From Clavelina lepadiformis (Eukaryota > Chordata > Ascidiacea > Aplousobranchia > Clavelinidae): DNA of 64,000 nt. The translations under genes were made by a program, and so were the position numbers. The stretch is from the NCBI RefSeq assembly GCF_947623445.1, contig NC_135243.1, positions 126,501 through 190,500 on the forward strand. Reading direction: 5' to 3'. Shown here in pieces: positions 2,221 to 60,000 of this stretch (position 1 is its first letter; each line of letters starts with the position of its first letter). The notes below the pieces were generated by a model. That model saw only the letters and a program-made list of their open reading frames with translations. It did no database searches and had not been told where the DNA came from.

Positions 2221-3184
2221 TTTTAATCAGAAATGAAAATAGGAACCACGGCTTCGAAGAAATAGGGAAAGTATCCAAGCGAGTAATAATTGTTCCTCGC
2301 ACGTGCCAAGCTTCGCTGCTCAAACTCGACTCGTTCAAGCTTACACATTGAAGAAGGGTTATTGACATAAAAACACGACCCTTGAACTGCGTAGGAACCG
2401 TGGAATCACGCCATGTTTGGGTCGCCCAGGTCTGATCGATCGGGAATCAACAGGAACATGACGTCACGCGGAATATATACCGTTGATGACGTCAGCGGGG
2501 CAGCCTACGCAAATAGTTTACCGATCAAGCGACAAACCTGGAAGGCTTAAAACAACCATCTCGGTCACTAACACCATTCGTGTACGTGTTATACTGTCTG
2601 GAGTTAAAACGAGTCAGACGACTGTCTGATCAATTAAGGCAATTTTGACGAACAGTTTCACAAGAATTTACTCATTTTATGAGGGCTTTTAACTTGGCTG
2701 CTATTTCTGGAAACGTCCATTAAAATATATGGCGACAGATTAAATTAAAAATTTTCATTTGTCGCCATAAATCTGCAGGAATTCAGTTAAAACACTTTAT
2801 AAAAACGAAACAGCATATCGCCGCCGACTAATGGAATGTTTGCCCGATCTAAAAGGTCTTCGCTCTAAACTGGAGAAAAATGAACAGACAGAAATGCAAA
2901 TGTTAGAATTTTATTTTGTGTCTTGAGTTTTTAGGTTTTCTTTTTTGATTTTGTTTTTTTATAATTTTTTGGTGTTTTTTGTTTTTGTGTTTTTTATAAT
3001 AAATAAATATTGCACTTTCAAGGTAACAACAAAATATAAAACGCCGACTTTTACTTCATTCCTGCATTATGACATCACAATAAAACACGCGTCAAATGGC
3101 GGCAACATAAAAGAACAGAATCGAGCGGCAGAGTTCGGAAATTTGATGATCAGATAACCTGCTTCTTACTATGACGTCACTTTC

Positions 3185-6100
3185 TCAGTATGGTGAATAC
3201 CAGGATGATCTTGGCCGACCTCTGTAAAACAACTCAGCCAATAAAAACATTTCGTCCATAACGTCATACTTGATAACCACGTCATGATACCTGAAAGCGC
3301 GGCGTGGCCTGTAGTAGGGGGCGTAGTGGCGTCCTCTGCCTCTGCCCCGGTACCTTGCCCTTCCCCGGTCAGTAGAGGTTAAGCCATGCTTGTTCGTTCG
3401 CTTCGGGTTCACCTGAATTATCACGTCATAAGCAACGTGTGACGTCAAAAGACATACAAACAGGACGTGGCTATACCTGGAGTTGCCGTCCACGGAACAA
3501 AGTGCCATCGAGTGCGGTGGCGGTGTCCACCGAGTCCTTGTCTGCAAACTCGATGTAAGCGAACCTGCAACAGAGCTACGTCACTACCAGCTCACAATTA
3601 ACTCATACGTCACTGGTCGCTCACCCTTTTGGATGTCCTGAGAATTTATCGCACAGAATCGTGACGCGGTTGACCGAGCCTGCGCCGTGGAAGTGGTGTT
3701 CCAACTCCTCCGCGGTGGCTCCATAATCCACCTAGTGGTGAAAGTGGGTGTAACAGATATGCGAACTAATTCAACTTGAAATAACTCACATTGCCGACGA
3801 AAACTGAACGTGCGTCTGCTTCCACTTTTTCCTCAACTGTTGGAAACGCAAATCCTGGACCTGAAAGACAGAAAAAGCCTCGTAAACGTGAAGTGGAGGC
3901 AATAAAATGAAGTTGACACAGCAATTTGTGTCTGCTCTAAATTAAAATATCAACAACGCAGAGGCCATAAATAGGCCTCACCCTGTGAGTGGGCAGAGGA
4001 AGAATCAACACATAAACCAGGTGAGTGGTTCTACTGCTGTATAGACCAGTGCTGAGAGCCCACGGTGAAGAGCAAAAACTCTGGTTTCTTTAGAGAATTG
4101 AGAATTTGCAGTGAAACAATGAAGCTTGCTGCTGTTGCTCTCCTGCTCGTGTTCATCGGGCTGACGACCGCTTTGCCCAAACAAGTTAAAGACAGAAACT
4201 TTGAAGAAAGACGAACTCAGGAATGGAAACAACTGAAGGAACGCATCAAGAAAAGGGTAAGGAGCAAAAAAAACAGGGTTTGGCAAAATTTTCTTAACTA
4301 TCTTCTTCTCACAGAACACGACACGTTTGAGCAAGGACTTGTGTGATAATGATGAAGATTTCAAGCAGCTGAGAGTTTGCCGGGACCAAAGGAGGGGAAT
4401 CAAATGCCAGGAATCTATGGCACAGCCTCCTTCATACAAGCAACAAAATGCGGACACAGACTTAAATACTGTCGAGATGAGTGGTAAGACGAATTATGTT
4501 AGATAAAAGTGATCCTGTGTGATGTAACAATCTGTTGAACAGATGGTGCAAAGAGAAGGGAGAAAAGAAGCACCAACCCCTGTCTGGGGCCCGTCCAATC
4601 ACTCTTCCCATATTTTGCTCCCAACTTCTTCAATGGGAATATTGAGGAGGTGTACAAAATTGGACCTAGTTTCGAAGACGGTATTCTTTGTTTTCAAATC
4701 ACAAATTTTGGTGCTATTCAGTGGTAATAAAATCAACTTTTTACGGTATTAGGATTCAACGAAGCCATCCTCTATCACATATGTGCACCCCTGTCCTCAC
4801 CCTTATCATGCCAGGAAACATATATGGGCATCCAGGCACTGGTTTATCTCAACGAGCCCTGGGTGAATGATGACGTCGGGATGAGCGTCATTGCCGTGCC
4901 TTCTGGATGCGCAATGACTTTCTGATCTTTGGAGGTTTATATTCATTGCTGCTCTCACATATAAACCACGCTTTGTATATTGCTGCTGCCATACTGGCAC
5001 ATTGTGTATCATGTAACCCTGCTAATAAAAACAAATATAACAGTCATGAGCAGCATTAAATTAATTCAACCGCGAAGTTGAAGCAACAACGAGCAAAAGC
5101 TATGAAAATTGCAGGACAGTAAAGTGTTTTGTGAAAACTTGTCACAAAATGTCAAGTTAGATTAATGATGGATTGGGCTCAATTAAGTCGGGGGTGGAGT
5201 GGCCAATAATCCAGGCCCCGTGCGCCACTCGTCATATCAATCTTCAATCTATTAATAACGAGCACTCAGGCAGCACTTGAAATAATTCCATGAAAGAGCA
5301 GTTACTGCTGAGTAGGGTTTTGACGCATTACACCTCTTGTAAGGACCAGGCGTGATTGGTCGCGGATCAATAATCAGGAGGCATCGTGACAAAACGTCAG
5401 ACAAAATTGTTTCTAACAAAAACAACACGCAAGGGTGAGCTGCTAATTTTGAAACGCTATTTTAAAAACTAACTTTTCTCCGGACAAACAAGTGTATAAA
5501 AGCATCAATAATCAGGGAAAGGTTTAGAAGCCAATCTGGGAGAATGATGACTAAAAAGAGTTTAATTTTTATTGTCTTGCTTGCCACCATGGTTGTGGGG
5601 GCCCCGAAAGATAAAATAGAACCAGACAAAGAAGCCAAAGACAAAGAAAAGCAGAGAACACCCATCTCTTACATGGTGAGTCGCGTTTGTATACCAGCAG
5701 CCGTTCTTTGCAGCCTTACATGTATAAAGGTTACTTTCATCAATGCTTTGAATTGAGTGGCAAATTGTTTATCAACAGACAGAGCCGATCACTGAGGACA
5801 TGTGCAAGGATAAAGAGTACAAGCACCTGCACATGTGCGACATACTCAAGAAGAACAAGACGACGTTGAAGCACGCCGTCGATGACTACAGGTGTTTATT
5901 TGATGACTATGGAAATCATAGTGGCGAAAACGGCAACCAACAAGTACGACACCGACAAACCATCTCCATTCAAGCATCAAGTCACGCTTCAGTGAGCGGG
6001 ACGAGCGCATCAGCACACAGCAGTGTGAGCCACAACATAACGTCCTATACATCTCATGGGGAAGTCCCAACATTTCACAAAAGGAAGAAGAGAAGCACTC

Positions 6101-7679: not shown

Positions 7680-10155
7680 TTTCCTCGAAGGTCAGAAATT
7701 ACAATACACAATGTCAGTAAATCTTAAAGAGAAATTATTTATATACAATTTTAAAATGCACACTAATGCAGTGTTTGTGACATCACCGCTGCCTCTAATT
7801 ATGTCACGATCACTTTATCAAGAAATTACTGTAACTAACATGCAAATATTGAGATGTGAGGCACATTTTAATGAGAAACCGTGAACAAGAATCGGACGTG
7901 GTTGTTCACACTGTGACGAGTCAGAGCTTTAAACTGGATCAAAAACTTTCCATTAGTAACCTTCAGAGGTTGCAAAGAAATTCATTTTGAAAGTTTCACT
8001 CTGGTATATTAAGTGAGAAGTGACTTCTTCTTGACTGACTGACGTGACCGACTTCTTCCTAGAACTCTAAAAATGCCATCCAGCGTCAAATTTCTTTTTA
8101 AAAATAGTTGCAGCTGTTGAAAATATTTCAAATATATACATGCTTGTTTGTTACCTACTTGCATTCATACACACAGTGCAGACCCTGCCTACTTTGTTGT
8201 TGCACATTCCATGCCGGTAAATTTGAAAAAGTTTTTGTCATTTACTGAAGGAGGGTCTTAGTCTTTGATCACAGGTAAAACATTTTTAAATCTTCTGTAG
8301 AGTCAGAAGCAATAACGTGCATTTGTATTTGGTCTGCATTTTGCGGTTTACACATTAAAAATACGCAGGTCACCTGCTTGATCTTGAGACGACTCTTTGA
8401 GTGACTTCAATTTTTTCCTTTTTTTGTTTGGTGTCTTTTAAAACGTAAATCTTTATTTTGTATGTTAAATATGATTCATAAAGCAGTTTATTTCCATCCA
8501 TGTCCACTGCAAAGACCTAATTAAGTGAACTTACTAAACTATGAAATAGAATGGCAAAGCCTTTAACCATTTGAGACATGAAATGTGGGTTGCTACTTTC
8601 AAATTGTGGATGAAAAGCTACATTGTACTTGTCGCTAAAAGGCACAACAATTCTACTGCTGGCATTAAAGTACCTACTGCGTTATAACTTCAAAATCACT
8701 TAGCCTTATCATTTTCACTTTTAACACAGCTTTCCCGATTGGAATGCAAAAGATGATATCATAATCGTGGTGTACGCAAAAAGAGAAAAGTTATTGGAGT
8801 ATCGTTACGGCTTAATCAAGATTAGGGGAGACACTTAGTCTAGCGTAGCAATTTTAGAATGTTTAGTTCAGTGATGAGTGTTTAAACTGAAATATACCGG
8901 AGAGTTCTACTAAACAAAACTTAACACAGTGGACCGATGAGGACATGAAAAATGCTGTTGATAAACTTCGGAAGTTACAGGGAATTGACTCAGTATCGCA
9001 GCAAATTATAACATGAATATAAGCATTTTACATAAAAGGTAGATTTGCCAGGTAGGCCTAGACACCAGTAAACTTGTTTATGTTGCAAAAAAATCAAGGC
9101 AAAACTCATTAGCGCAGTGCAATATTTATTTCTTTCCTGTCTACAACATATCAGAGGTCCATCGGGGATAACACTGAGGGGAAAAAAGCAAGTGGCGTAT
9201 TTGCTGCAGTGAAACGGTAGTTGCCACAGTAGTTTGCAAACCAATTTTTTGCATTTCTAGCCTAAAAGAATCCTATGTATCATAGTTCATTTGTTTTCCG
9301 TAAAATTCGAAGCAAAGTGTGATTGCAAAGTATGGCCAAGCTGAGCAATATTTTCAGTGCAACAAACAACTAAAAATGACAAGTGCAGCAAAACAATGCT
9401 CAGCTGCAGTTAAGGGCGCAATTAAACAGTACGGTAATGTACATCAGTTTGAGTTTTTCAATCTTTAATAAATTCAAAATTAAGTGCACACAAGTTTTTT
9501 CCAAGTCATTAAGGGCAAAATAACGCACCTGAAGTGGCACTGAAGCTAATGAAAAGCAGTATCAAGTGACGAAACTCCGCAGTCTGGTCAATAAAAGACA
9601 ATACCATGTAGCCTATTGCCTTAAACTACCATAACCCACAAAACCAATTTGGCCGACAGAATCTATTTCAATTCGTAGGCTAACCTAATTGCTGTTTATC
9701 AAACTGGTATAGCATTCTAGCCTAGGTTATTTTCTTTGCTTAGCTCCACACTAGGCGGTAAAAGCAGTCCAACACTCCAACATGGAGCACATGTATTAGC
9801 CTATTGGGCCTAATTCTTGTTGGGAGGCAGCAATTTTTTCACTTTGGCTCAATTATGTTACTCTAATTTATATGAATTAACTTTTACCTGAAATGCAATT
9901 TCGCTTCCTAAAATATTGCATTTAATGAAATTACACAGAAATATGAAACTAAACTTAAGTTAAAAGAAATTAATAAAACTTCTAAGTTTTAAAATTAATG
10001 CATAATTTTAACTATCACTTTTTCACCAACGAAACGTCTTTCGTTCAAAAAACCTTTGTTTGTTTGGGACACATAATTAGAATCTATGAACTATTAATTG
10101 TCACGCAGAAAACTCGAAAGAAAGATGCAAATGTTAAGGAATGAAAAATACAATA
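7680..10155. other. Intergenic, PABPN1 upstream region
   Basis: AT-rich DNA with only short chance frames on either strand. The PABPN1 promoter should lie just right of 7679, but no TATA box or other core element stands out. I see no RNA gene. Confidence 0.5.
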
Positions 10156-10325
10156 GGGGAAGTGATTATTTAATGACTTCGAACCCAGGTCATGAAAATT
10201 TGATAAGACGCCACTATTCTAAGGCCACGCTCCATAGGAGCCAACCCATTTCCAATACAACCCACAACTTGCAGGTCACATCTTCTACAGGCCACTATTG
10301 CAACCCACAATGCAAAGACAGGCGT

Positions 10326-10788
10326 CACAAATGAAGCCTGGTTCGAGATTACACAGGTCATGCCTCGTATAACATAAAGCCTGGGTCGAGATTACAGAAG
10401 TCATGGTTCGTATAAATTGAAGTCTGGGTCGAGTTTACAGAGGTCATGGGTTCTATAGATTGAAGCCTGGGTCGAGAATCGAGTTTGGAAGGATCATGGC
10501 TCGTATAAATTGAAGCCTGGGTCGAGATTGGAAAGGTCATGTCTCGTATAGATTGAAGCCTGGGTCGAGATTGGAAGGGTCATGGCTCGTATAAATTGAA
10601 GCCTGAGTCGAGATTACGGAGGTCATGGGTTCTATAAATTGAAGCCTGGGTCGAGTTTGGAAGGGTCATGGCTCGTATAGATTGAAGCCTGGGTCGACAT
10701 TACAGAGGTCATGGGTTCTGTAGATTGAAGCCTGGGTCGATATTACAGAGGTCATGGGTGCTGTAAAATGAAGCCTGGGTCGATATAA
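10326..10788 (+). repeat. Left minisatellite array, about 11 units of 43-45 bp
   Basis: The core GAAGCCTGGGTCGAGATTAC recurs about every 44 bp, joined by AGAGGTCATGGCTCGTATAA or GGTCATGGGTTCTATAGATT variants. Units differ at several positions, so the array is not freshly amplified. Confidence 0.9.
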
Positions 10789-11343
10789 GAAAATGGTGAA
10801 TTCGAATACAATTGAGACCTGGAGTCTGAAGTTAAATATGTTGAATCAGAAGGCAGGAGGGTTAGTCGAGCTCTTTTGCTGTTTTTTTTTTAGGACTGGC
10901 AGACTGCGGACGCTGATTAATGTTAAAGAAATTACTGTGTCAGTGTGTAGGCCTATTGAAATATTTTAAGCCATGGGTTTTGATTGCATTGAAAGTTAGG
11001 CTAGGCCTGTATGAGGCGAAATTTATTATAAGGCAATCTGAAACGAATATTATAGGTTGTAGCTTATAGTAGGCTACCGGTACATACTGGTATGTGGTCC
11101 CAAAGTTGCATACTGACATAATGTTTTCATTGACTACCGTATTCCTGTTCACAGCTTACAAATAAAGTAAAATTGAGCAAAAACAATATACTTTAAACTT
11201 GATTTTAGCAGCACAACTGACATGTTGTATTTGAATTAGTGTAGTTAATGTGCTGTACTGTAAAACATATATAAGGTATTCTACCGCCATACTGTTGTTA
11301 TTGGTTTACTTTGAAATTGTATGTATTTCACGTTTGAATTCAC

Positions 11344-13048
11344 ATGTGGTTTGAAAACTTCTTTCAAAGAATAAGGATTGGAATACTGTTTCATCACAAT
11401 ATGGTACTTTATGGTTTCACAAAAGAAGATTTACCCGCAGAAATAGCGACTGGGTATGTTAAAGCCATAATTTGCTCCTTTTTACTTTGACATGTTGTTT
11501 ATGGAGTTTGTTTTTAGGTAACTGCACGTTTCATGAAACCAATTGTAACTATCATAAATACTGGGGCACAGTGCACACTGGGTGTTTTTGGTGAGATTCA
11601 AATTCAATGTATTAAGATTTTTCGTAACACTAGCTATCTGCCTGACGACTATCACCATGCAGCTACCATTACATTATTTGCAGGCAATTGATGTTGCTAA
11701 CGCCGAGGTTTTCATATATGATCCACTTGGGAGGGAAAATACCATCGCTCCAACCATTACAACTAATTTAACGTAAGCTGAAGCTGTGATTAAAAATTGG
11801 CTTGTAATCTGTCATGGAACGGTGCATGAAATTCGCCAGTGATTGACAAAGAAGTTTTATTACTATTAAGAAATATGCAGGTGGTATACCGTGGACATAT
11901 AGGATTTTAATGTAGCCAACAGTGAGTCAATAAGGACATTTGTGCTTTCACAAATAAATTTCAATGTTTGTAATATTATCACGCCTATCACTCGGGCTCA
12001 CATGAGCTTAAATTTCGGGTTCGGTACTTTACAAGTATTTATACTGTACTGATATATTTCAATTCTAAATAGATCCTTCCAGAAGTTTTACAACATGAAA
12101 TTGCATCAACTGAATGCATCTTACGAAGATGCAAAAGTGGAAATATACAGCCACAATATACAACAAGATACCCACAGTTGTGGGCCCCTCTCTATCATGG
12201 TAAGTGTTCAATCATGAATACAAGATAAACCTAAACCCCCTAACTCATATCTTGTTACATTTGACTATAAGTTATTGCAGTGAGAAATAATTAAGATAAA
12301 ACAAGGCGAGTTAACAAAGGAATTTTCATTATAGTAGGTATCGGACATGGGCAGCACTGTTGCTAGCACAGAGCTCTAACAATGCAGCCACTTGGTAGTT
12401 AATAATTGCATAATAATTGTAAAAGAAGAGCATGGCTTTTACTAGTTGAGTGCTAATGTGCACTTTACAATTCAGAGCAGATTTAGACTGTGGACATATG
12501 TGGGAGATAAAACATTTTTGTGGATTATATGTGACAAAATATTGTAAACTTGAAACTGCCTATCCACTGAAAGCTACTTCTACGTTATGTTTATGTAAGC
12601 TGCCCAGCAATACATGAAAAATGAATTTCAAGAATTTAGAGAGGCTTCCACAGATTGTAATGCAATACGCATTGCAATTGGAAATATGCTACTTAGACAT
12701 TGTGGTAAGTCCATGCTTAATTTATTTGGGGTCCCATTAATTCAATGAAAAATAATATTATTTCACTTCATGTTTTGTTTTAAGATGAAGAGAGTAGAGA
12801 ACCTAGACGAATTTTGTGTTCATTGTTCGAAAACAACATCACGGAGCACTGCATGGGTAAATAGTTTTCGCCTGAAGTTGTTCAATGTAATGTCATAACA
12901 TTAAGGCTTCTATTACAGCAATATCAAACTGTTTTGCCTATTTATCTTTCAGTATGCATGTGATCAATGCTGCCGATGGATCCACGAATCCTGCTCCGCT
13001 GAACCGGCAGAAAACCAACAGTTCCTTTGCAAACATTGCACAATTTAA
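11344..13048 (+). CDS. Ulp1/C48-type cysteine protease with C-terminal PHD finger (element-encoded)
   Basis: Predicted exons: 11344-11453, 11572-11590, 11684-11772, 12073-12199, 12608-12704, 12795-12856, 12953-13048; the phases agree. The 5' end is uncertain and more exons may exist. The protease shows the C48 order of catalytic residues: His in GAHWVFL, Asp in FIYDPLG, Gln and Cys in QQDTHSCGPLSIM. The last two exons encode a C4HC3 PHD finger: FCVHC, ACDQCCRWIH, ESC, FLCKHC, ending CTI. Ulp1 proteases cleave SUMO or related ubiquitin-like tags; PHD fingers read histone tails. The 12795 acceptor is weak, but it is the one that keeps the PHD frame. A poly(A)-like AATAAA follows at about 13058. 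The gene lies between the two inverted arrays, which suggests element cargo rather than a host gene. Confidence 0.7.
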
Positions 13049-13715
13049 TTCATGTAATAAAATTCTTTCCAGTTCTTAACCTGTTTGTGGTACAAAAATA
13101 AGTCAGGCAAGCATTCACTGTAAATGATTTATTAAATTGAAGCATATCAGCGGAAAGGAAGGTGTTGAAGAAAGTACTTTTAAACAATTTCCTCACTACA
13201 AAGACGTTCATCTGTAAATGTGTTTTCTTTAACTCATGCAGTCAGGAGTCTTCCCAATTGAACGTGGGTCACGTGAATGATTTCACAATCCTAGGAGCAA
13301 CGTGAAATGGTCTGCATCAAAAATCCTAACATGCAGTAATAATGTATGGTCAAACCACTCCATTTTTATGTCCTTCAATAGCTTACTAAGCAAATCACTA
13401 TATACCTGTAAAGTACAACTAAGACAATGGTGTAATTAACATGTGAGGAGAAAAAAAGTAATTGGTAGCAGGCATTTTATCAGAAACACCACAAATAAGT
13501 AGTTCAACAATAATTTTATCAAGTACTTGCATTTATAATGAATTTGTGGTTTTGCATAACTCAACATTCCTGTGGCACTCAATTTAACTTCGTGTGTAAT
13601 TTGTGGGGCTTAATTTCCGTAATATAGGTAATGTATGATAATTTACTGCACAACGCAAACTTAGTGATACAGGATTTAATTAAAAAACATGATCTATTTC
13701 ATTTCAAACCAGCCT

Positions 13716-14391
13716 TTTAGGCATGACCTCTTTATTGTCGATCAAACCTTCAGTAAAAAAAGCTGTGACCTTTCCAGTCGTAGGCTACATAGCCTAACCC
13801 ATGACTTCTGTAATGTCGACCCAGGCTTCATTTTATACGAGCCATGACCCTTCCAATGTCGACCCAGGCTTCAATCTACAGAACCCATGACCTCTGTAAT
13901 CTCGACCCAGGCTTCGATTCATACGAGCCATGACTGCTGTAATCTCGACCCAGGCTTCATTATATACTAGTCATGACCTTTCCAATCTCGACCCAGGCTT
14001 CAACCTACAGAACCCATGACCTCTGTAATCTCGACCCAGGCTTCGATTCATACGAGCCATGACTGCTGTAATCTCGACCCAGGCTTCATTATATACTAGT
14101 CATGACCTTTCCAATCTCGACCCAGGCTTCAACCTACAGAACCCATGACCTCTGTAATCTCGACCCAGGCTTCGATTCATACGAGCCATGACTGCTGTAA
14201 TCTCGACCCAGGCTTCATTATATACTAGTCATGACCTTTCCAATCTCGACCCAGGCTTCAACCTACAGAACCCATGACCTCTGTAATCTCGACCCAGACT
14301 TCAATTTATACGAACCATGACCTCTATAATCTCGACCCAGACTTCATTTTATACGAACCATGACCTCTGTAATCTCGACCCAGGCTTCTGA
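13716..14391 (-). repeat. Right minisatellite array, about 14 units, inverted relative to the left
   Basis: This is the same unit as the left array but reverse-complemented (TCGACCCAGGCTTCAATCTA form). From about 13860 to 14260 three adjacent units form a block of about 130 bp that is repeated three times almost unchanged, i.e. a higher-order repeat. Confidence 0.9.
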
Positions 14392-14668
14392 ATTTCACGC
14401 CTGGCTTGCGAGTCATAAATGGATCACTTCCCCGCCTCGAAAAATATAGCCTGTTCTGCGGACTAATTGCAGTCTTTTGCATGATCACTGGAGCCCCGAT
14501 TACCGAACTAAGCACTGAACTTTAGCAAGTTTCGTTAACGTTGTGCCATTACAATTTCATTGGTGCGGGTTAATCACAATTGGCTTGATTTTTCGTCCCC
14601 ACCGCGCTTTTGACAAAAAATAACATCATTGATTGTATGGTATAGCGCCACGTTGTATGGAACGGGAG

Positions 14669-14851
14669 CACGACATATGGCCGCGGGAAAGTGGCCGCGA
14701 ACAAACTCACCGGGGTCAACTGAACGTGACGTAAATTGACCGCAGACAAACTGACTGTGACATAAACTGGCCGGCGATCAAATTAACCGTCGATAAATTG
14801 GCCGGCGATCAAATTAACCGGCGACAAATTGGCCGTCAAAAGGTCAAAATT
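14669..14851 (+). repeat. Left terminal inverted repeat of the MULE
   Basis: 183 bp. The outer end is CACGACATATGG and the inner end GGCCGTCAAAAGGTCAAAAT. It pairs with 16128-16310. Confidence 0.93.
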
Positions 14852-15095
14852 TTAAACTCGGTAGTATATGATATGTAAAGTAAATATTTGTTTGTAACTA
14901 TTTCCTTTGTTTTTAACAAAATTGTTTTTTATTTCAATACACATTGAAACGTTTATTGAAATAAACAGAAATATTTCCGGAAATACGAGAAATACGAGTA
15001 ACAACATTAAAAGACGTTCACTGCAAAACACATATGACACTACATAATATGGGCACTAAAATTTACACAAGCTGTTATTTGACAAACAAGGAAGT

Positions 15096-15887
15096 TTATT
15101 GCGCAAATTGTAGGTTGTGGGCGATGCCTCTGAGAAAATCTAATATGTCACGGTTTGCAAAATCTTCAACGATGGTTTGAAGTCGCGCATCCAGATCCTT
15201 GTATTTTCTCCTTTTGGCAGGAGGCCCTTGGGCACAGAGCGCCTCAATCTTGTTTTTGTTTATGTTCTGCAATTTCCTTAAAGCTTCTATAAATTTCCAA
15301 ATGGTTGGGTGTTGCATTGATAACATCCTGTTTATTAGACTGTGGTGACCTTCAACTTTGTTGTTGGTTCTGGCTTCGCCATTTAACACCCGAACATGGA
15401 CGTTCCAGAAGTCATGTGAATATGGCGGGTCTCTTCGGAGCTGAGTTCGAAAGCGACGCCCGATGTAAGTACGCTCAAAGTAGTCGAGAAGCGGAAGCAT
15501 TTCATCAGGCAAAAATTCCTCTAATGTTTCAAAAGCCTCAATCAGATGCTGTATTGGAACAAATGCCAAAGCCGGTATGTGACGCAGCAGTAGTGCAAAT
15601 TCTTGATCATTTTGATACCTTCTTTGAAGTCCGATTTGCTGCATGTGCTTCCTGACATTTTGATTTAAATGAAAAAAGCAACCACTTACTGTGAGGTCAT
15701 CATAGTCAAACACCATCCGAATTGCATTTATTGCAGACATTTCAAAATCAACCAAAAAACTTGTTGGATGTGCATTTGGTATCAGTCTCCACCTGCTGGG
15801 CTTCTCCAACTCTTTTTGCAATTTACAATTATTAGCATAACCATAACCAAGACTTAAAACTAGGGGAGTCCTGACGTACAGCTTCAA
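15096..15887 (-). CDS. MULE transposase, C-terminal part
   Basis: A 263-residue open frame. The family signature is strong: HPTSFLVDFEMSAINAIRMV holds a catalytic Asp; then GCFFHLNQNVRKHM, LALRHIPAL-type FALLLRHIPALAFVP, PLLDYFERTYIGRR, SHDFWNVHVRVLNGEARTNN, KVEGHHSLINRML and HPTIWKFIEAL. These are the C-terminal hallmarks of MULE transposases. The upstream zinc finger and the first catalytic Asp, normally about 250 residues earlier, do not fit between this frame and the TIR, so the protein is truncated. In intact elements the enzyme cuts at the TIRs and joins the element to new DNA. Confidence 0.88.
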   Translation of the reverse strand: MKLYVRTPLVLSLGYGYANNCKLQKELEKPSRWRLIPNAHPTSFLVDFEMSAINAIRMVFDYDDLTVSGCFFHLNQNVRKHMQQIGLQRRYQNDQEFALLLRHIPALAFVPIQHLIEAFETLEEFLPDEMLPLLDYFERTYIGRRFRTQLRRDPPYSHDFWNVHVRVLNGEARTNNKVEGHHSLINRMLSMQHPTIWKFIEALRKLQNINKNKIEALCAQGPPAKRRKYKDLDARLQTIVEDFANRDILDFLRGIAHNLQFAQ

Positions 15888-16127
15888 TCTGACAATTTAC
15901 TTAACTAAAGTGTCCATTGTTATTGCAATAAGTCCATTGTTACAACATGAGATAGGCTACAACGCATTGTTTCATAATCTCATCAAACAACTCGTCTAGA
16001 CTGGGAAAATGTATGTAACAATAAGAAATCTATGAATATGGGTCACCGTACAAGGGGCCAAAAAACTCTACGAGTGGCAACCTTGACTGCAATACACATA
16101 CTGGATAGTGACTAGATAGTGAATTAG

Positions 16128-16310
16128 AATTTTGACCTTTTGACGGCCAATTTGTCGTCGGTTAATTTGATCGCCGGCCAATTTATCGACGGTTAATTTG
16201 ATCGCCGGCCAGTTTATGTCACAGTCAGTTTGTCTGCGGTCAATTTACGTCACGTTCAGTTGACCCCGGTGAGTTTGTTCGCGGCCACTTTCCCGCGGCC
16301 ATATGTCGTG
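16128..16310 (-). repeat. Right terminal inverted repeat of the MULE
   Basis: 183 bp, almost identical to the reverse complement of 14669-14851. Confidence 0.93.
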
Positions 16311-19293
16311 GAACCGTATGGAACACTGACCACGAGTCGCATTATTGCAAGGCCAGCGCTTGAGCAACTCCGCTATCAAGTCGACAAATCATTGAAGATA
16401 TGACAAACATTAGTTCGTTGTTGTATTACTTGTGTGAAGTATTACACAATAAACATATCTGTCATCAGGACCGCGTACACTGGCGGTTATTGTTACAATA
16501 TGAGCGAGGACGATTGATGGTTGATAACTTGTTTTATTTCTGCTTCGATGATATGAGTTCTCATTTCTCAAACGGCGTGACTATGCTGTTAGTTGCTTAA
16601 TTCTGTCTATACAAATTACTAAATGATAAGGTTCCCATTTTGTTTATTATCAGACACAAAAGCTTCCATCTTCAGGCACAGCTTACTCGATGTTAAATTG
16701 CGCAATGGTAAAAGTGAAATCGATAACGTAAAAAGGAAAGATTGTAAACATTACATTGGTATATATCTGGCACACCAGTTCAAGCGAGGTAATTTATCTG
16801 AACTTCATTAAGGAGAATTCAAGTCCGGTCAACAATTCAATTGCAAGATCCCAAAATAAAATTTCAGCATTTCCAAAACAACTCTATACTCGTGACGTAA
16901 CTGTCACAGTGGTTTGTGGTAATAATGTCCCAACCTTCCCTGTGATCATTGACAATCTTCATCAACTTGCAAATTATTCGATGCGACTTGCCCTTATGCC
17001 GCGTTCCTTTTATCGCCTTTGCGTTCATTTCATGATGACGTGTTTTTCATGCTCTAATTCAGGGCGCTCCAAACCTTTGGCACGTGGTGACGTGGGCCAC
17101 ATGTGGTCTGCGGGTAGATTCGGTGCGGCCCGCAAAATCTTTCCGAGTTTTGGTATGCTGCATTTTCCACCTCAAAATACCCAGTTGTTGAAGTACACCT
17201 GCTTTTAATTAAATAGGTTGCATTAGCAGCAGCCTGAGATGAGCTGCACATAATTGAAGTGCAAGTCAATGTTCACAAATGCGGTGTTGTAGTAAATTAG
17301 CCCTTTATAGTCTGCAATCTGGTGTTAAAGCTCGTATATCGTGATGGTGTTCTTGTCTTTAGTAAAATTTGAGTACATTACGAGGTCAATAAAATGAACA
17401 TTTAAGTTATATGGAAAAACTTTGTCAAATTTAATGCATGCAGTAATACTAAGATTCTGGCTGCAGAAGATTTCATGACCGATAGATAAGAGACTGTTTC
17501 AATAGAACCAGCACGTTTATAACCGTAAAATATAGGCCTAGCTGTTACTCAATTCCATCTAAAACCCAGCAACAATTACTACGTTGCGTGTCGTCTTGGT
17601 GTGCGAGACATACATCAGGAGGACCATATTTGCGAAAGACCCCAGGAGGCGGTTAATTATAGTCAAAGAATCAGATTATTCATTGACTTGTCGACTATCG
17701 GTGAATACCAGCAGATTTTAAAAAGTGTAAGATAGATCGATGTGGTTACATGGGGCACAAGCCGTGCATAACCTCATCGAGGGCCGGATTGTAACACCCT
17801 GCCATTACCAACCATTATTGTGAAACTTTGGAAGGGCCCGTGTTAGCAGAAGCACGGTAGAGCTTGCGTTATTCTGAATAATTGTTCCTCGGAGTCTTTT
17901 ATCGTTGGTAAAATCCTCCTCGAACAGATTACTAGCGACCTGACTTGAAGTCGCATCCGACACAGCACGTGTCAATACTCAATAGGTTATATCTCTAATT
18001 GAAAGTATTCTTTTGGCATACCGATCGATAAAGTTCCATTGCAGTTGTTTGTAGTTTTATAAAATAGCTCAGCATTTCATGGTCTGGCTGAGACTTCTCG
18101 AAATGTGCGGCCATGTTGGACTGTCCAATTACCATTGTGACGCAATCACAGCCCAATTACCATTGTGCAAAGGTTCAGCCAAACCAAAGACGACCGGTGG
18201 ATCCAAAATTCGGTTTAAAGTCGAGGAAGAAGGAAGCTCGCATCAAGCGAGATGCGAGGGAACTATAGGATCGAGTAAGATCGCCTTTCAACTGGTGTCT
18301 TGCTAACAGTAATTTCTATAAAACAATTATTTTCAATATCTTGGATCACAATGTACTTGTAAGCTCAGCTTTGCAGTAACCTGCTGTTGTTTATGATGAA
18401 CTTTTGTTCCATAAACACGTGTAAGGACAAATTTTTCCTGAAAGTTGCGTTCAACATCATTTTGGGTCTGAACCTGCTGAACTAGCGCTAGCTAGCGGCA
18501 ACTCTGCAGCTCCCGAATCCATCGCGGTTGGTTACTTCGGTGTTGATCAGGAATATAGTTCGGTGCGAAGGTTTTACTAATCGTCTAATCGCTCTTATGC
18601 GATCGTTGATTAAATGTTTGCTATATTCGTCAGTATCTCATAAGCTAGGCCTACGCAAAAAAAGTTTAAAACGGAGATCGGATAAAAAAGATTTCTTATT
18701 TTAAGGATAGTCAAGGAGTTATGGTTAGTGGGTAAAAATTTAGTTTCCAAAAAAATATTGACGAATTTTATTGAAGTTGTAATAAACATAAGAAAAGAGT
18801 TACCCTTTTCCCCCGGTTGCTAATTATAGCGATGTAGTGGAATTCAGTATTCCCTCGTTCTTGAATTGTTTCTACTTTTAAATTTTTGGCGAAATTAAAT
18901 GTTTAGTGACCGTTGTCTTCAAAACAAAGTTTTACGAATTGGGACGTTCCCTTACGCACAGCCTTGCGCCACCAGGCGGCGATTACCATTTCACGCTTCA
19001 CCAAACATTGTTGTGACGTCATCGTTAAGCGAAAATAAACTTTGTCCTCCAATTCTGATTCTCTGGATACGCTTTTTGATGACGCAACAATCATAATTGA
19101 GACATTATTATTATTTCGTAATTCTGGTTACATCGAATCAATTATTGGCTTCTAAATAAAGCCTCGACCATAAGTGCAATTATGACATCACAAATAAAGT
19201 AAGTATTACGCGGTTTGTGATTGTTCAAGTGGATGCGATCGATAAATTTTTAGTTTCAAAGCACGGCGACGAGAAGTAACAGTAGAGCTGACA
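16311..19293. other. Intergenic, no gene recognised
   Basis: Only short frames without domains. A hAT-like end fragment lies at 17060-17150. The promoter of the CUB/EGF gene should lie left of 19294; no core motif is evident. Confidence 0.5.
17060..17150 (+). repeat. hAT-type transposon end fragment
   Basis: CAGGGCGCTCCAAACCTTTG followed by GGGCCACATGTGGTCTGCGG and GTGCGGCCCGC resembles the outer part of non-autonomous hAT elements. It shares the CAGGG...C-AAAC start with the two MITEs at 33095 and 51584. I found no matching opposite end, so it is a remnant. Confidence 0.45.
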
Positions 19294-54063: not shown

Positions 54064-57000
54064 TCAGCGGTTGAAGCCGTCGACTTTGGTGAAAGTGCCA
54101 GGCATCCATGACTCGTTAAAATTGGTTGAGCTGCAAACGCAACATATTTGAACCTTTAGGCCAACAGCAACAATTAGAAGTATAACGTAAGTTTTAACTA
54201 AATAAACGTTCCTTTATTTTGACTGGTAAGAGACGTGGTGAGAGCTTGTACCTGTATTTTCCGAGGCTGCCTCGCGATCGCTTGCTAGACCGCAAATTCA
54301 GTCGCCTCGGGGATTTCTTTCTGCATTTTATACACGCAATTAGGACAAGTGTGACGACAGCAAGCACTACTGCTGCCAACCCCACAGCAAGTGCGGCCAC
54401 TACGGAAGAATCTGAAACACACAATGAAGTCGTCATAATCAACAAAACAATCGGGTTATGAGGTAGTTAGTGAGAAAGATGCCGTCATGCTGGTCACGTC
54501 ATCCGCAATCGTTCCAACGTATAATATGACGTCAAGCAAACTTATTTTAGCGAAGTGAAGCTTTTATGGAAGGAGACAAAAACAATTCCGTAGTTTACAA
54601 AAGATGATTTCATTTCTGGTGAATTTAAACAACTTTACAAAAAAGTTATCTTCATGAAAACTTTTCAGGTTCATCTGACTTTTAAATGGTTTGAAATCAA
54701 AGTTTCACTTCAAGAGCAAGGTTACGGTTACGTAATAGGTACAGGTTTTGTAATAAAATACACTAGAACACTCCCAAAAAATAAACCTTTACCCTAAACC
54801 TAAAACCTCCTACAGCAGATAAGATAATATAATTGTATACCTAAAGGAAGCCACTTCATTTATGTCGCTTTAGATACCTTACACTGTAATTTAACCTTAT
54901 AATCTTAAGTTTTTTTGGAATAAATTACTTACTTAGATTTTCGCATCGAGTCCCGATGTACCACTGCGTGCACGTGCAGAGTGGATCACCCACATGGAGA
55001 ATGGCGTTGCAAGAGCCACCGTTCAAACAATAAGACTCTCCATCCAACACGCACTGCTCTTCACACCTAAGGTAGACGAAAGGTTAGAACAAAACAAACA
55101 TCCTCCAAGATTAGTTGGCAGCAGGAGCGTACTCTCTTCCTGTGTACGTCGTGTTCTTGTCTCTGAAGCCGGGATCACACGTGCACACGTATCCAGGGTA
55201 CTCGGTGATGTCGCCACATGAGGCGTCTGTCCCGCAGTCGTTGGTTTCATCGTCGCTGCACTCGTTGAAGTCTGAGCAAATATTATCGAAGAAATTGTAG
55301 TTTCACGATTTATGACAAACCGACATTAAGAGCAACAAGTGATCGGTGAATGGTTGATCACTCACTGGACGCGCTTGCCGATGTCAAAGCGGGGTCACCA
55401 GTTGCATTGTTTGCAATTCCAGCTCTGATCAAACTCCCTACATCGGTCTCCGAAGTGACGTTTGCGAGTCCTACTGGTGACGAAACAATGGTGCTGCCCT
55501 CCGTGAAGACAAAACCCGCTGAAACTTCGTAGCTCACTTCAATAGAAGGGGCAAATATGATGTCAAGCTGAAGATTTGAACAACCGTCTGGGTTATTTTA
55601 TCACAAACAGTTCGCGCAACGAGTTGTTATAGACAGGACTTGATTCAGGAGAACTTATACAACAAAGTAAATTTAGTTGTCGATGTACCAGGAAAACTTA
55701 CCCCATTTTTGAATCTTCTGATAAAAGCTTTGGCTTCCTCGCTGGTCGGATCGTTCAATCTCGGATCAAATGTTATGTTATAGACAAGCGTTATGACGTA
55801 CCTTTGGAACGCTGCAGAAAGAATTACCTTTATGAGTCATAAGTCTAAACCCATTATTAAACGGTAAATCATATCGGCGTCGTACTCACCGACACATTGT
55901 CCCGCGTAGAAGGTTTGTAGAGGCGGACAACCTGGGGAGGAAGTTGTAGTCATCGCTATAAACAAAGACAACGATAATATTGTTGTAGCGACAGTGATCG
56001 AAGATCAACGACTATTGATTACGATTTAAAATATCCACTCAAAATATTGTATTTCGGGTTAAATGAAAAGTTAGAACGCTTAATATGGTACATTCTGGGG
56101 AGGTTGGTGAAGGGGTAGTTGTTGTGGTGGTACTTTCTGCTGAAGTTGGTTCAGGGGTGGTTGCCGTGGTACTTTCTCCTGAAGATGGGGCATGGGAGGT
56201 TGTTGTGGTGGTACTTTCTGCTGAAGTTGGTGCAAGGGTGGTTGTTGTGGTGGTACTTTCTGCTGAAGTTGATGCATGGGAGGTTGCTGTGGTGGTACTT
56301 TCTGCTGAAGTTGGTGCAAGGGTGGTTGAAGTGGTAGTTCCAGCTGAAGTTGGTGCAGAGGCGGTTGTGGTGGTGGTACTTTCTGCAGAAGTTGGTTCAG
56401 GGGTGGTTGTTGTGGTGGTAGTTCCAGCTGAAGTTGGTTCAGAGGCGGTTGTGGTGGTGGTACTTTCTGCAGAAGTTGGTTCAGAGGCGGTTGTGGTGGT
56501 GGTACTTTCTGCAGAAGTTGATGCAGGGGTGGTTGCCGTGGTACTTTCTCCTGAAGATGGGGCATGGGTGGTTGTGGTGGTGGTACTTTCTGCTGAAGTT
56601 GGTGCAGGGGCGGTTGTTGTGGTGGTAGTTCCAGCTGAAGTTGGTGCAGAGGCGGTTGTAGTGGTGGTACTTTCTGCAGAAGTTGGTGCAAGGGTGGTTG
56701 TTGTGGTGGTTTTTTCTGCTGAAGTTGATGCAGGGGAGGTTGTTGTGGTGGTACTTTCTGCAGAAGTTGGTGCAAGGGTGGTGGTTGTGGTGGTACTTTC
56801 TGCAGAAGTTGATGCAGGGGAGGTTGTTGTGGTGGTACTTTCTGCAGAAGTTGGCGCATGAGTTGTTGTGGTGGTACTTTCTGCTGAAGTTGGTGCAAGG
56901 GTGGTTGTTGTGGTGGTACTTTCTGCTGAAGTTGGTGCAAGGGTGGTTGTTTTGGTGGTACTTTCTGCTGAAATTGGTGCAGGGGTGGTTGTTGTGGTGG

Positions 57001-60000
57001 CAGTTCCAGCTGAAATTGGTGCAAGGGCGGTTGTGGTGGTACTTTCTGCTGAAGTTGCTGCAGGTTAGTTTTTGTGCACTGAAATTTTCAGGAATTTTTT
57101 CCTTTTTGGAGATATCCGTCAAAAAGCTACAATGGCAACTGCACTAAATTGTAATTTTGCTCATCAATTTTGTTATAAAGAGTAATTACGCAAAATAAGT
57201 ATCACAGTCTTGCGTTTGAAAGCAGTCATCTTGTAATAAAGTTACCGTTCGTGTTCCTGCATTCATCGCTACAGTTGCCCTTCCCACCATTGGCCAGGCA
57301 TTCATTGACGTCATCACAGGTGTTGGTAGCTTGGTTGTAGATGAACCCTCCCACGCAGTTACAGCTGATGAAAGAAACAACTGTTTATCTCGGAACAATT
57401 TAATCGGATGGAAGCTTCAAATGAAGCGAGTTATATTCTAAGAGTGCGCTATGGAGGTGGACATACGAGTAAGTTCCATCCGTGTTGTTGCAGGATCCTA
57501 TAGGACCGGCCGGGCAAGGATCGTTCAAGCATTCGTTGACATCTTGACATGAGTCTGACGTAGCTGATGGCTCATATCCTCCTGCGCAGTCGCACCTGAG
57601 CCAATCAAAATTGATTACGTCACAGTGGAAAGACGTTTACTTTGGGACTGCGTGTTTCACTTTTTCATACGTCGTCATACAAACGTCATCAACTAATCAT
57701 ACATACCTGAACCCTCCGAAGGTGTTGTTGCATACTTGGCCGGGTAGTGAGCACGAATCTACTCCAAGGTCACATTCATTGCGATCCACACAACTTGTGT
57801 TGCTGCTGGGACCAGGGATGAATCCGCTCTCGCATTCGCATCTGAAAATTGCACATGCTTGTCCACATATATCAATTTATATCAACTCGATCTTTGTACG
57901 ACCTCGGATTTGTGGAAAGAGCATTTAGGTGAGAAGAAGAAGAAGCAGATATACTCACACATAAGAGCCTTCTGTGTTATTGCAAGTTGTTGTTGTTAAG
58001 TCACAGATGGCCGTTCCAACGTCACACTCGTTGACGTCATCACACAATGTGTTATTGGATGCATTTATGACGTAACCATCTTCGCATGAGCAAGCAAACC
58101 TCTCAAAAATACTCTGACATAGTTGTTCGCAAGGTTTGCTCAAACATGCTAAAGAAGAAAATAAAAGTAATATTTCGGAATTTGATTTTATAAGCTTTGG
58201 CATATGGTCAGGGTGTTATAAGATACAATGACTTATAAATAAATATTCGACGACAGAACAACGTCATTGACATGATCATAACTAGACTAGAACTTTAGTT
58301 TGTATAAGTTCATAGCGAACTCTGTTCTTAGTTGTTTTTACCATCAACCGAACAGAAAACTCCGTCCCCGGTGGAGCCCGACGGGCAGGCCCCGCATTCG
58401 TAACCTGATCCCGGGGCGGGCACATCGGTGCACTCGACCCCATCGTAGCAAGGTGGTTCAGACAGACACGGGTTGAAGTCCTCGTCGCAATACAAACCAT
58501 CGTATGCATCCGGGCACATGCACGAGCCCACCTTGAATGTTTGTTTAATATTTTGACTGAAAGTTTACGTCAGCATTTATCACAAAATAACCAGAACTGT
58601 CAAAGATTTTACAAAACGTCGGTTGTAGTTTTCAGTTCAACTCTATACTTTAGTCGGTGGATATTGTACAGCACATAGTTTAATATTTTAACAAGATTTA
58701 TTGTTGTTTATGGAAACATCAAACTCACGTAGAACCGGTTAGAGTTATCAGCGACAGCAAAATTAGCAAAGCTGCAAGTTCCATTGTTTGCGCATGCGCA
58801 CAACCGGATTGTGACGCCCACAGAGGAAGTGAGGTTGGTTGAATCGGTGGCGTAAATTGTTATGCTTCTGACGTCAGTAGAGAGAGGCTTCCAAGTAAAC
58901 AATCCAGCTGACAATTTATAAGTTACGTCATAAAGCCAACCTTCATTAACCTTCAAGTCAAAAGTTCATTAACTTCTTCATAAACAATATTTCTATTTTT
59001 CTGCTGGTGCTAGACATCCCCCCACTTACTGGTCGCGTTCAAACTGGCCGCGCTGTCGTTGACGATCTTCCCGCCGAGCGAGTATGTCACCGTGTGGTTG
59101 TCCGGGTCGGTCGCTTTGAAGTGGAAGGTGAACTCCTCGTTCAAGGTCACATCGATGGTCATAGACGTGTTTGCGAACACTGGCGGCAAACCAGCTGCAA
59201 ACAAGTTGCTCATATTAATAGTATAATGAGTCTCTGTCCAGTGTTGTCCAGTTAATGTTGTTGTTGTTGACTTAATTTTGCTTTATGACGTAAAAGTAGT
59301 CAAAATAATCTTTGTTACGTTGTGTCAACAGCTCCAAATCTCAGTCCTGTTAAAATTATAATTTTTCTATGTCCAGTGCAGAGCAAGAATTTGTCACTTA
59401 CTGAAGGTTGGACCAGGACCGAGTCCCCCCGAGTTCCTCGATGGATCCTTGTTCACTAATACGTCATGGAGACATTGGGACTTTCCAATCGCGTCATCCT
59501 ACAAAAAGATGTTTTTTAAAAAAAGGATTTTGATAAATTAAATTTTATCCTATTATAAAAAAAGTCGCTTTTAGATTATTGGGATTTATGGAACTGAATC
59601 TATTTTTTGTGAAAGTTTCCGATACGGGGGAATACAGAAAGAAGAAAAAAGTCAAATTGTCAATTCCAAGATTAAACTTGGAATCCCTGATTTGACATTT
59701 ATACTTTACAGTGCAAGTATCATGACGTCACGTCGCCTTATCACGTCACACTGATACTGTTGAAACTTTAAAAAAGGCTAAGTGGTCAAACAACTGGACG
59801 CTTCATATGACGTCACATTAAGCACTCACCACTTCGCCACATGCGGCAGCAGCCTGAGCGAGCGACTCATCCGACGCTTCATCGAGAAGGACTTGAAGAT
59901 TTTCTCCGACGAATGAAAGATCGTTGAAAGTTGACCAACTCTGTCCTCCTTCGTAAGCAAATAAAGATTCTTCCGCTGTCGTCCTCCCTGTTTAAAATGT

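Follow-up and report, generated by a model that had tools for sequence, protein, structure and literature searches.

An internally deleted DNA transposon in Clavelina lepadiformis and its probable KDZ/Zisupton-like parent with a Ulp1-PHD tail

What is a gene combining a SUMO-type protease (C48/Ulp1) with a PHD-like finger doing between two inverted minisatellite arrays in the genome of the ascidian Clavelina lepadiformis? The question is raised by a stretch of 64,000 nucleotides (contig NC_135243.1, positions 126,501 to 190,500 of assembly GCF_947623445.1; hereafter the window), in which a sequence-only reading had placed a transposon-like cassette at 10156..14433 and treated the Ulp1-PHD gene as cargo of a unit lacking a transposase. 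We confirmed that the cassette forms a single mobile unit: it has defined borders, is flanked by target-site duplications and has copies elsewhere in the genome. We consider it probable that this unit belongs to a cut-and-paste family as a non-autonomous copy with an internal deletion, and that the parent enzyme is a KDZ/Zisupton-like protein possessing a Ulp1-PHD tail and binding the arrays.

The element is flanked on either side by a perfect 8-bp target-site duplication, GAAAAATA, and the first bases of its two ends are unlike (CAATAGGGGAAGTGAT versus GAGGCGGGGAAGTGAT); the true borders, 10151 and 14438, lie 5 bp further out than first proposed (Table 1). The terminal repeats noticed earlier hold: preceded by CAATA or GAGGC, the inverted repeat GGGGAAGTGAT is present at both ends in all 17 exact pairs found in the genome. 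These pairs were identified with a pattern spanning both termini, which matched the genome 50 times (24 ends of the CAATAGGGGAAGTGAT, or CAAT, type, 24 of the GAGGCGGGGAAGTGAT, or GAGG, type and two others), while the reversed pattern used as a control had no genome match. Thirty-four of the 50 matches form the 17 inward-facing pairs, spaced 178 to 8447 bp apart, each with one CAAT and one GAGG end. The element itself, used as a query against the 209-Mb genome, returned at least 159 matches, many of which are array pieces.

The copies, borders and duplications that the sequence-only reading had proposed to look for were thus found. Perfect 8-bp duplications, with 14 distinct sequences, surround 15 of 17 both-ended copies (13 of 14 in a first set and two of three in a further one); of the imperfect cases, L043 matches at 7 of 8 bases and L016 has no duplication. 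The count covers copies for which the fetched DNA includes both ends, one end being slightly altered in two copies, and leaves out loci with one recognized end or none and loci repeating another one (L001-L008, L014, L020, L021, L024, L026, L027, L028, L037, L041, L042, L044-L048). Copy L016, which also has a turned interior, is possibly a recombination product between copies. Common flanks of L011, L012 and L043 on contig C1 identify them as one duplicated site, occupied by two nearly 7-kb copies in opposite orientations and one 561-bp copy; as a single insertion site is seen there three times, segments of C1 are duplicated, and one of the copies probably became shorter at the site.

Inside these borders, the window copy carries seven exon-like pieces (+ strand, 11370-13048) encoding the C-terminal part of a C48/Ulp1 domain and a C4HC3 finger. 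They are seven of the 19 exons modelled in the family, exons 1-12 being absent. The exons of the proposed Ulp1-PHD gene stand, with window Pfam scores below the cut-offs: C48 reaches 18.7 bits on exons 15-17 (cut-off 20.7), and PF00628 PHD reaches 19.9 bits (19.6 in the exon-richest copy; cut-off 24), the C4HC3 spacing being read by eye. The four catalytic residues claimed for the protease are reduced to three: Asp, Gln and Cys are in open exons, and a 7-bp insertion shifts the frame at the His. Another copy, L009, shows the same deletion junction and both 7-bp insertions of the window copy, and the two interiors are identical at 2982 of 3017 aligned columns; their target-site duplications differ (GAAAAATA in the window, CGATTACT in L009). 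In exon 14, the insertion is not seen in any of the four other copies displayed (L010, L011, L018, L019); that of exon 18 is missing from seven of the nine rows shown, a comparison with no row for L018 or L019. Since the lesions are common to two copies at different sites, the derivative was probably moved in trans. The simplest reading is that it moved after loss of its coding capacity, by an enzyme that would have been supplied from elsewhere.

A candidate for this enzyme is encoded by longer copies of the family, which contain up to about 4 kb of extra sequence between the left array and the Ulp1 exons. The exon-richest copy, located on C1 (L014 plus L037; hereafter M), was modelled with 19 exons and about 1,015-1,040 residues, with clashing phases at the exon 8-9 junction; it is without its 5′ end, and its 5′ array is reduced to about three units. 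The longest both-ended copy (L017, 8447 bp) is without exons 8-14. The protein layout in the longer copies comprises zinc fingers, a SWIM-like motif, a CxC4 cluster, a DGN block, a second conserved core, the Ulp1 domain and the PHD-like finger. The spliced M model matches the Pfam models CxC4 (PF18717; E 1.1e-8, 35.4 bits, cut-off 26.9) and Peptidase_C48 (E 1.2e-7, 32.2 bits, cut-off 20.7). By eye, the model also contains a CxC...CxH motif in exon 3, which we take to be SWIM-like, and GAHW, YDP and QKDSHSCG, which we take to be the Ulp1 catalytic motifs. The supposed cargo turns out to be the 3′ part of one large gene that has lost its first 12 modelled exons in the window copy; the Ulp1-PHD part is therefore the tail of a probable transposase, and the longer relatives anticipated by the sequence-only reading exist, encoding this probable transposase. 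We hypothesize that this large multi-exon protein is a KDZ/Zisupton-like transposase that would move the family, with Ulp1-PHD as an accessory tail that might strip SUMO-like modifiers from chromatin or the transposition complex.

M covers most of the interior sequence of all ten compared copies. M leaves uncovered about 180 bp of outer left sequence in several copies and small pieces, as well as the core exons of L038 and L011 and a stretch of about 1.15 kb in L018. The L018 stretch (element 2815-3961) is located between parts matching exons 16 and 17; a 357-bp stretch of L017 (2852-3209), absent from the other copies covering the place, is probably a later intron insertion. A sequence search of the PDB with the Ulp1 part gave no match at E 1, and scanning the viral_contigs collection with the exon 3 protein revealed one stretch fitting the pattern and none encoding a relative. 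None of the eight matches listed by a C48 profile scan of the genome falls in elements of this family, probably because the exons are short. A distant relative with internal stops (L039 on C9) and a weak CxC4 match at C2:508055 were also observed.

Over exons 12-19, the ratio of non-synonymous to synonymous substitution rates (dN/dS) against M is 0.24-0.34 in seven of seven copies, with one to four codons per copy set aside for gaps; all comparisons share M and are not independent. The window copy differs from M by 20 synonymous changes per 121 sites and 22 non-synonymous changes per 491 sites, and L011 and L018 each contain one in-frame stop. These values suggest that Ulp1-PHD evolved as a protein before the copies decayed. 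The stretches shared by M, L015 and L016 with L017 are about 99.6-100% identical outside the arrays, indicating that the activity of the family is recent.

Between exons 8 and 9, where coding sequence seems to be lost from M, L038 contains further exons, which L011 and L012 retain in part. In L038 these core exons read GGIVHFRCPHGICVYFKYIARQESARDYIDGLLSLKRQPVVFISDISSQ and then VAHHGENRQPGMFRPYKGMLYEW up to NTSI, the donor between them being GC rather than GT, and in L011 the core reads on to NTSIAEQ. Partial matches with 50-59% identity occur at three other loci (C2:3734321 together with C2:3734846, C2:22295699 and C3:25212339), and the core is thus conserved in a wider family that has decayed in part. 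A Pfam search of the second core gave no matching model; we infer that it may represent the second part of the catalytic domain.

The family resembles KDZ/Zisupton elements in its 8-bp duplication, terminal inverted repeats, KDZ-associated CxC4 cluster scoring over the cut-off, CxxC followed by a DGN block, and large multi-exon protein. In the genome's KDZ element, the block with the first Asp reads CPAC, an intron and then LYYFDGNFGLVRR, containing DGNF; the corresponding block of this family, CYKCGTSPKILVGDGNWKNTC, contains CYKC and DGNW, and the two are similar. Zisupton and a Dileera family are reported to produce 8-bp duplications and Kyakuja 7-bp ones (PMC12730594), a Zisupton-like family of Pristionchus encodes 1166 amino acids in 18 exons, with the duplication undetectable for Pristionchus elements (PMC9297572), and CxC clusters were suggested to recognize DNA or chromatin proteins during transposition (PMC12062965). 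However, the KDZ catalytic profile PF18758 is unmatched, and the C-terminal Ulp1 domain with its PHD-like finger and the long inverted arrays set this family apart; the terms "Ulp1", "SWIM" and "PHD" do not occur in the main text of the KDZ paper (PMC12730594). A CxC5 (PF18718) scan matched neither this family nor the controls and is hence uninformative. We conclude that the family works like a KDZ/Zisupton element, while the tests for membership in the KDZ catalytic family were negative.

The arrays are inverted relative to each other, as described earlier, with units of 43 bp instead of about 44. When both are read inward, their consensus units agree at all 43 positions, and none of 100 dinucleotide shuffles of the element produced an array scoring 50 or more. 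In Galileo, tandem subterminal repeats hold binding sites of the THAP domain of the transposase (PMC3688188). By analogy, the inverted 43-bp arrays could be repeated subterminal binding sites for a DNA-binding part of the element protein. Long, internally repetitive subterminal inverted arrays and deleted, rearranged derivatives are further likenesses to Galileo/Foldback elements as described in PMC3688188 and PMC3573991; in contrast, the two ends of this family start unlike and its protein is unrelated, with no THAP domain (P superfamily/Galileo) among the Pfam matches of the spliced protein.

The orientation of the interior relative to the ends also differs between copies. Among 14 delimited copies, the Cys or PHD exon points away from the CAAT end in nine and in the opposite direction in three (L015, L016, L017), and is absent from two. 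Two of the three opposite copies retain perfect duplications despite their turned interiors, so either interiors were inverted between the arrays with the ends unchanged, or a single swap of the ends took place in an ancestor; the data can fit either. The copies also provide a clean series in which internal deletions, changed array lengths and turned interiors are seen while the unlike ends stay fixed.

Several observations weigh against a KDZ/Zisupton-like parent enzyme acting through the arrays. PF18758 matches neither the exons nor the second core (E 5) nor the spliced model (E 2), and its 31 matches in the genome all lie outside elements of this family. The eight KDZ loci of the genome that were compared (L029-L036) show no similarity to M, itself without the second core, in tblastn at E 1, and as members of the same family they were rejected on that result. 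CxC4 exceeds its cut-off on the hand-spliced protein only, single exons reaching 24.0-25.9 against 26.9 bits; the exon borders were computed without transcripts, with a phase mismatch at one junction, and no fetched copy combines both ends with all exons. Three of the four outside core matches contain internal stops, and the second and third catalytic residues are guesses. Binding of the arrays by the element protein is proposed by analogy only, the delimited copy L016 has no target-site duplication, and the lesions common to the window copy and L009 could also reflect gene conversion between copies. As a separate observation, L029-L036 represent a genuine KDZ/Zisupton family of their own, and many fragments of one 46-position stretch are found elsewhere in the genome.

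The rival that survives best, and which we nevertheless consider unlikely, regards the CxC4-Ulp1-PHD protein as an accessory or captured host gene, the real transposase being encoded by unfetched copies or by another family with the same ends. The missing KDZ domain match agrees with it, as do the 16 of 50 exact end matches that are unpaired; the fetched DNA does not include several of these, nor the two shortest pairs (178 and 283 bp). However, the interiors of all compared copies are mostly accounted for by one gene-bearing copy, M, and the protein possesses both a transposase-associated CxC4 cluster over the cut-off and a DGN block resembling the one in the KDZ element of the genome. Far less probable is a cargo unit in which the Ulp1-PHD gene is itself the functional product acting against host silencing: the union of Ulp1 and PHD-like finger in one gene, conserved as a protein between subfamilies, would fit, but the two domains belong to a larger gene in longer copies, and the window copy lacks the first 12 exons and has its frame disturbed by two 7-bp insertions. 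A stand-alone cargo gene was rejected for the window copy, its exons being the truncated 3′ end of that larger gene. A host gene locus with unrelated minisatellites, for which the exon-intron structure alone speaks, has a negligible probability and was rejected, because within this genome the sequence is not the single-copy host gene that the sequence-only reading allowed for but occurs in many copies, which sit at unrelated sites, share identical ends and are flanked by 8-bp duplications, and because shuffling yields no chance array.

Mutator-like elements (MULEs) follow a rule of 9-bp target-site duplication, and Ulp1-like genes occur inside such elements in plants. Membership of the present family among MULEs was rejected, as its duplications are 8 bp long and no MULE domain matches the exons, the spliced model or the second core. 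The CxC4 model is also linked with HMGXB3; unlike an HMGXB3-like protein, the spliced protein has no HMG box among its Pfam matches. In the open literature, we found no description of a Ulp1-PHD transposon layout and nothing combining Ulp1, a PHD finger, a DNA transposon and a transposase.

Table 1. Features of the transposon in the window (1-based window positions).
Feature	Position	Strand	Remarks
Left target-site duplication GAAAAATA	10143..10150	none	
Non-autonomous, internally deleted DNA transposon, 4288 bp	10151..14438	+	both ends recur in 17 inward-facing pairs; 8-bp duplication
Left terminus, CAATAGGGGAAGTGAT type	10151..10179	+	
Left subterminal array, 10.3 units of 43 bp	10332..10783	+	Tandem Repeats Finder (TRF) score 498
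Deletion junction, upstream-of-start sequence fused to intron before exon 13	11092..11140	+	element 942/990 = M 1287/6508
Exon 13 (Ulp1 part)	11370..11453	+	aligned part 11374-11453, first bases by correspondence
Exon 14 (catalytic His region)	11518..11590	+	73 bp versus 66 in longer copy, 7-bp insertion
Exon 15 (catalytic Asp, FIYDPLG)	11684..11772	+	
Exon 16 (Gln and catalytic Cys, QQDTHSCG)	12073..12199	+	
Exon 17 (end of Ulp1 domain)	12599..12704	+	
Exon 18 (first half of PHD-like finger)	12796..12856	+	7-bp insertion at start, also in L009
Exon 19 (second half of PHD-like finger and stop)	12953..13048	+	
Right subterminal array, 13.7 units of 43 bp, inverted relative to left	13799..14388	-	TRF score 690
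Right terminus, GAGGCGGGGAAGTGAT type read inward	14410..14438	-	
Right target-site duplication GAAAAATA	14439..14446	none	

Two further repeats of the window were recorded. A MULE-like element at 14664-16315, 225 bp downstream of the transposon, is flanked by the 9-bp duplication GTATGGAAC and has inverted repeats of about 180 bp containing 31-bp tandem units; its 266-residue frame (15096-15896, - strand) resembles a MULE transposase by eye and has no Pfam match. A 42-bp minisatellite at 56039-57064 contains, on the - strand, 341 open codons encoding mucin-like, Thr/Ser/Pro-rich repeats of 14 residues; other frames over it are also open (220-335 codons), and the mucin-like frame is a candidate only.

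Taken as a probable derivative of a KDZ/Zisupton-like parent, the window element combines an ordinary mechanism with an unusual origin, namely a KDZ-like element of the CxC4 type that has Foldback-like arrays and into which a Ulp1-PHD tail is built. It is conceivable, and in our view rather doubtful, that the family forms a lineage beside but outside the KDZ catalytic family, with a giant transposase ending in a SUMO protease and a chromatin-reading finger, Foldback-like array recognition and interiors turning between fixed, unlike ends, where the tail would help the element to operate in SUMO-marked chromatin or to evade it. Should the spliced protein prove to be the transposase, the enzyme itself would contain a SUMO-type protease and a chromatin-reading finger, instead of their being carried as cargo, and a concrete link between transposition and SUMO-dependent silencing would become testable.

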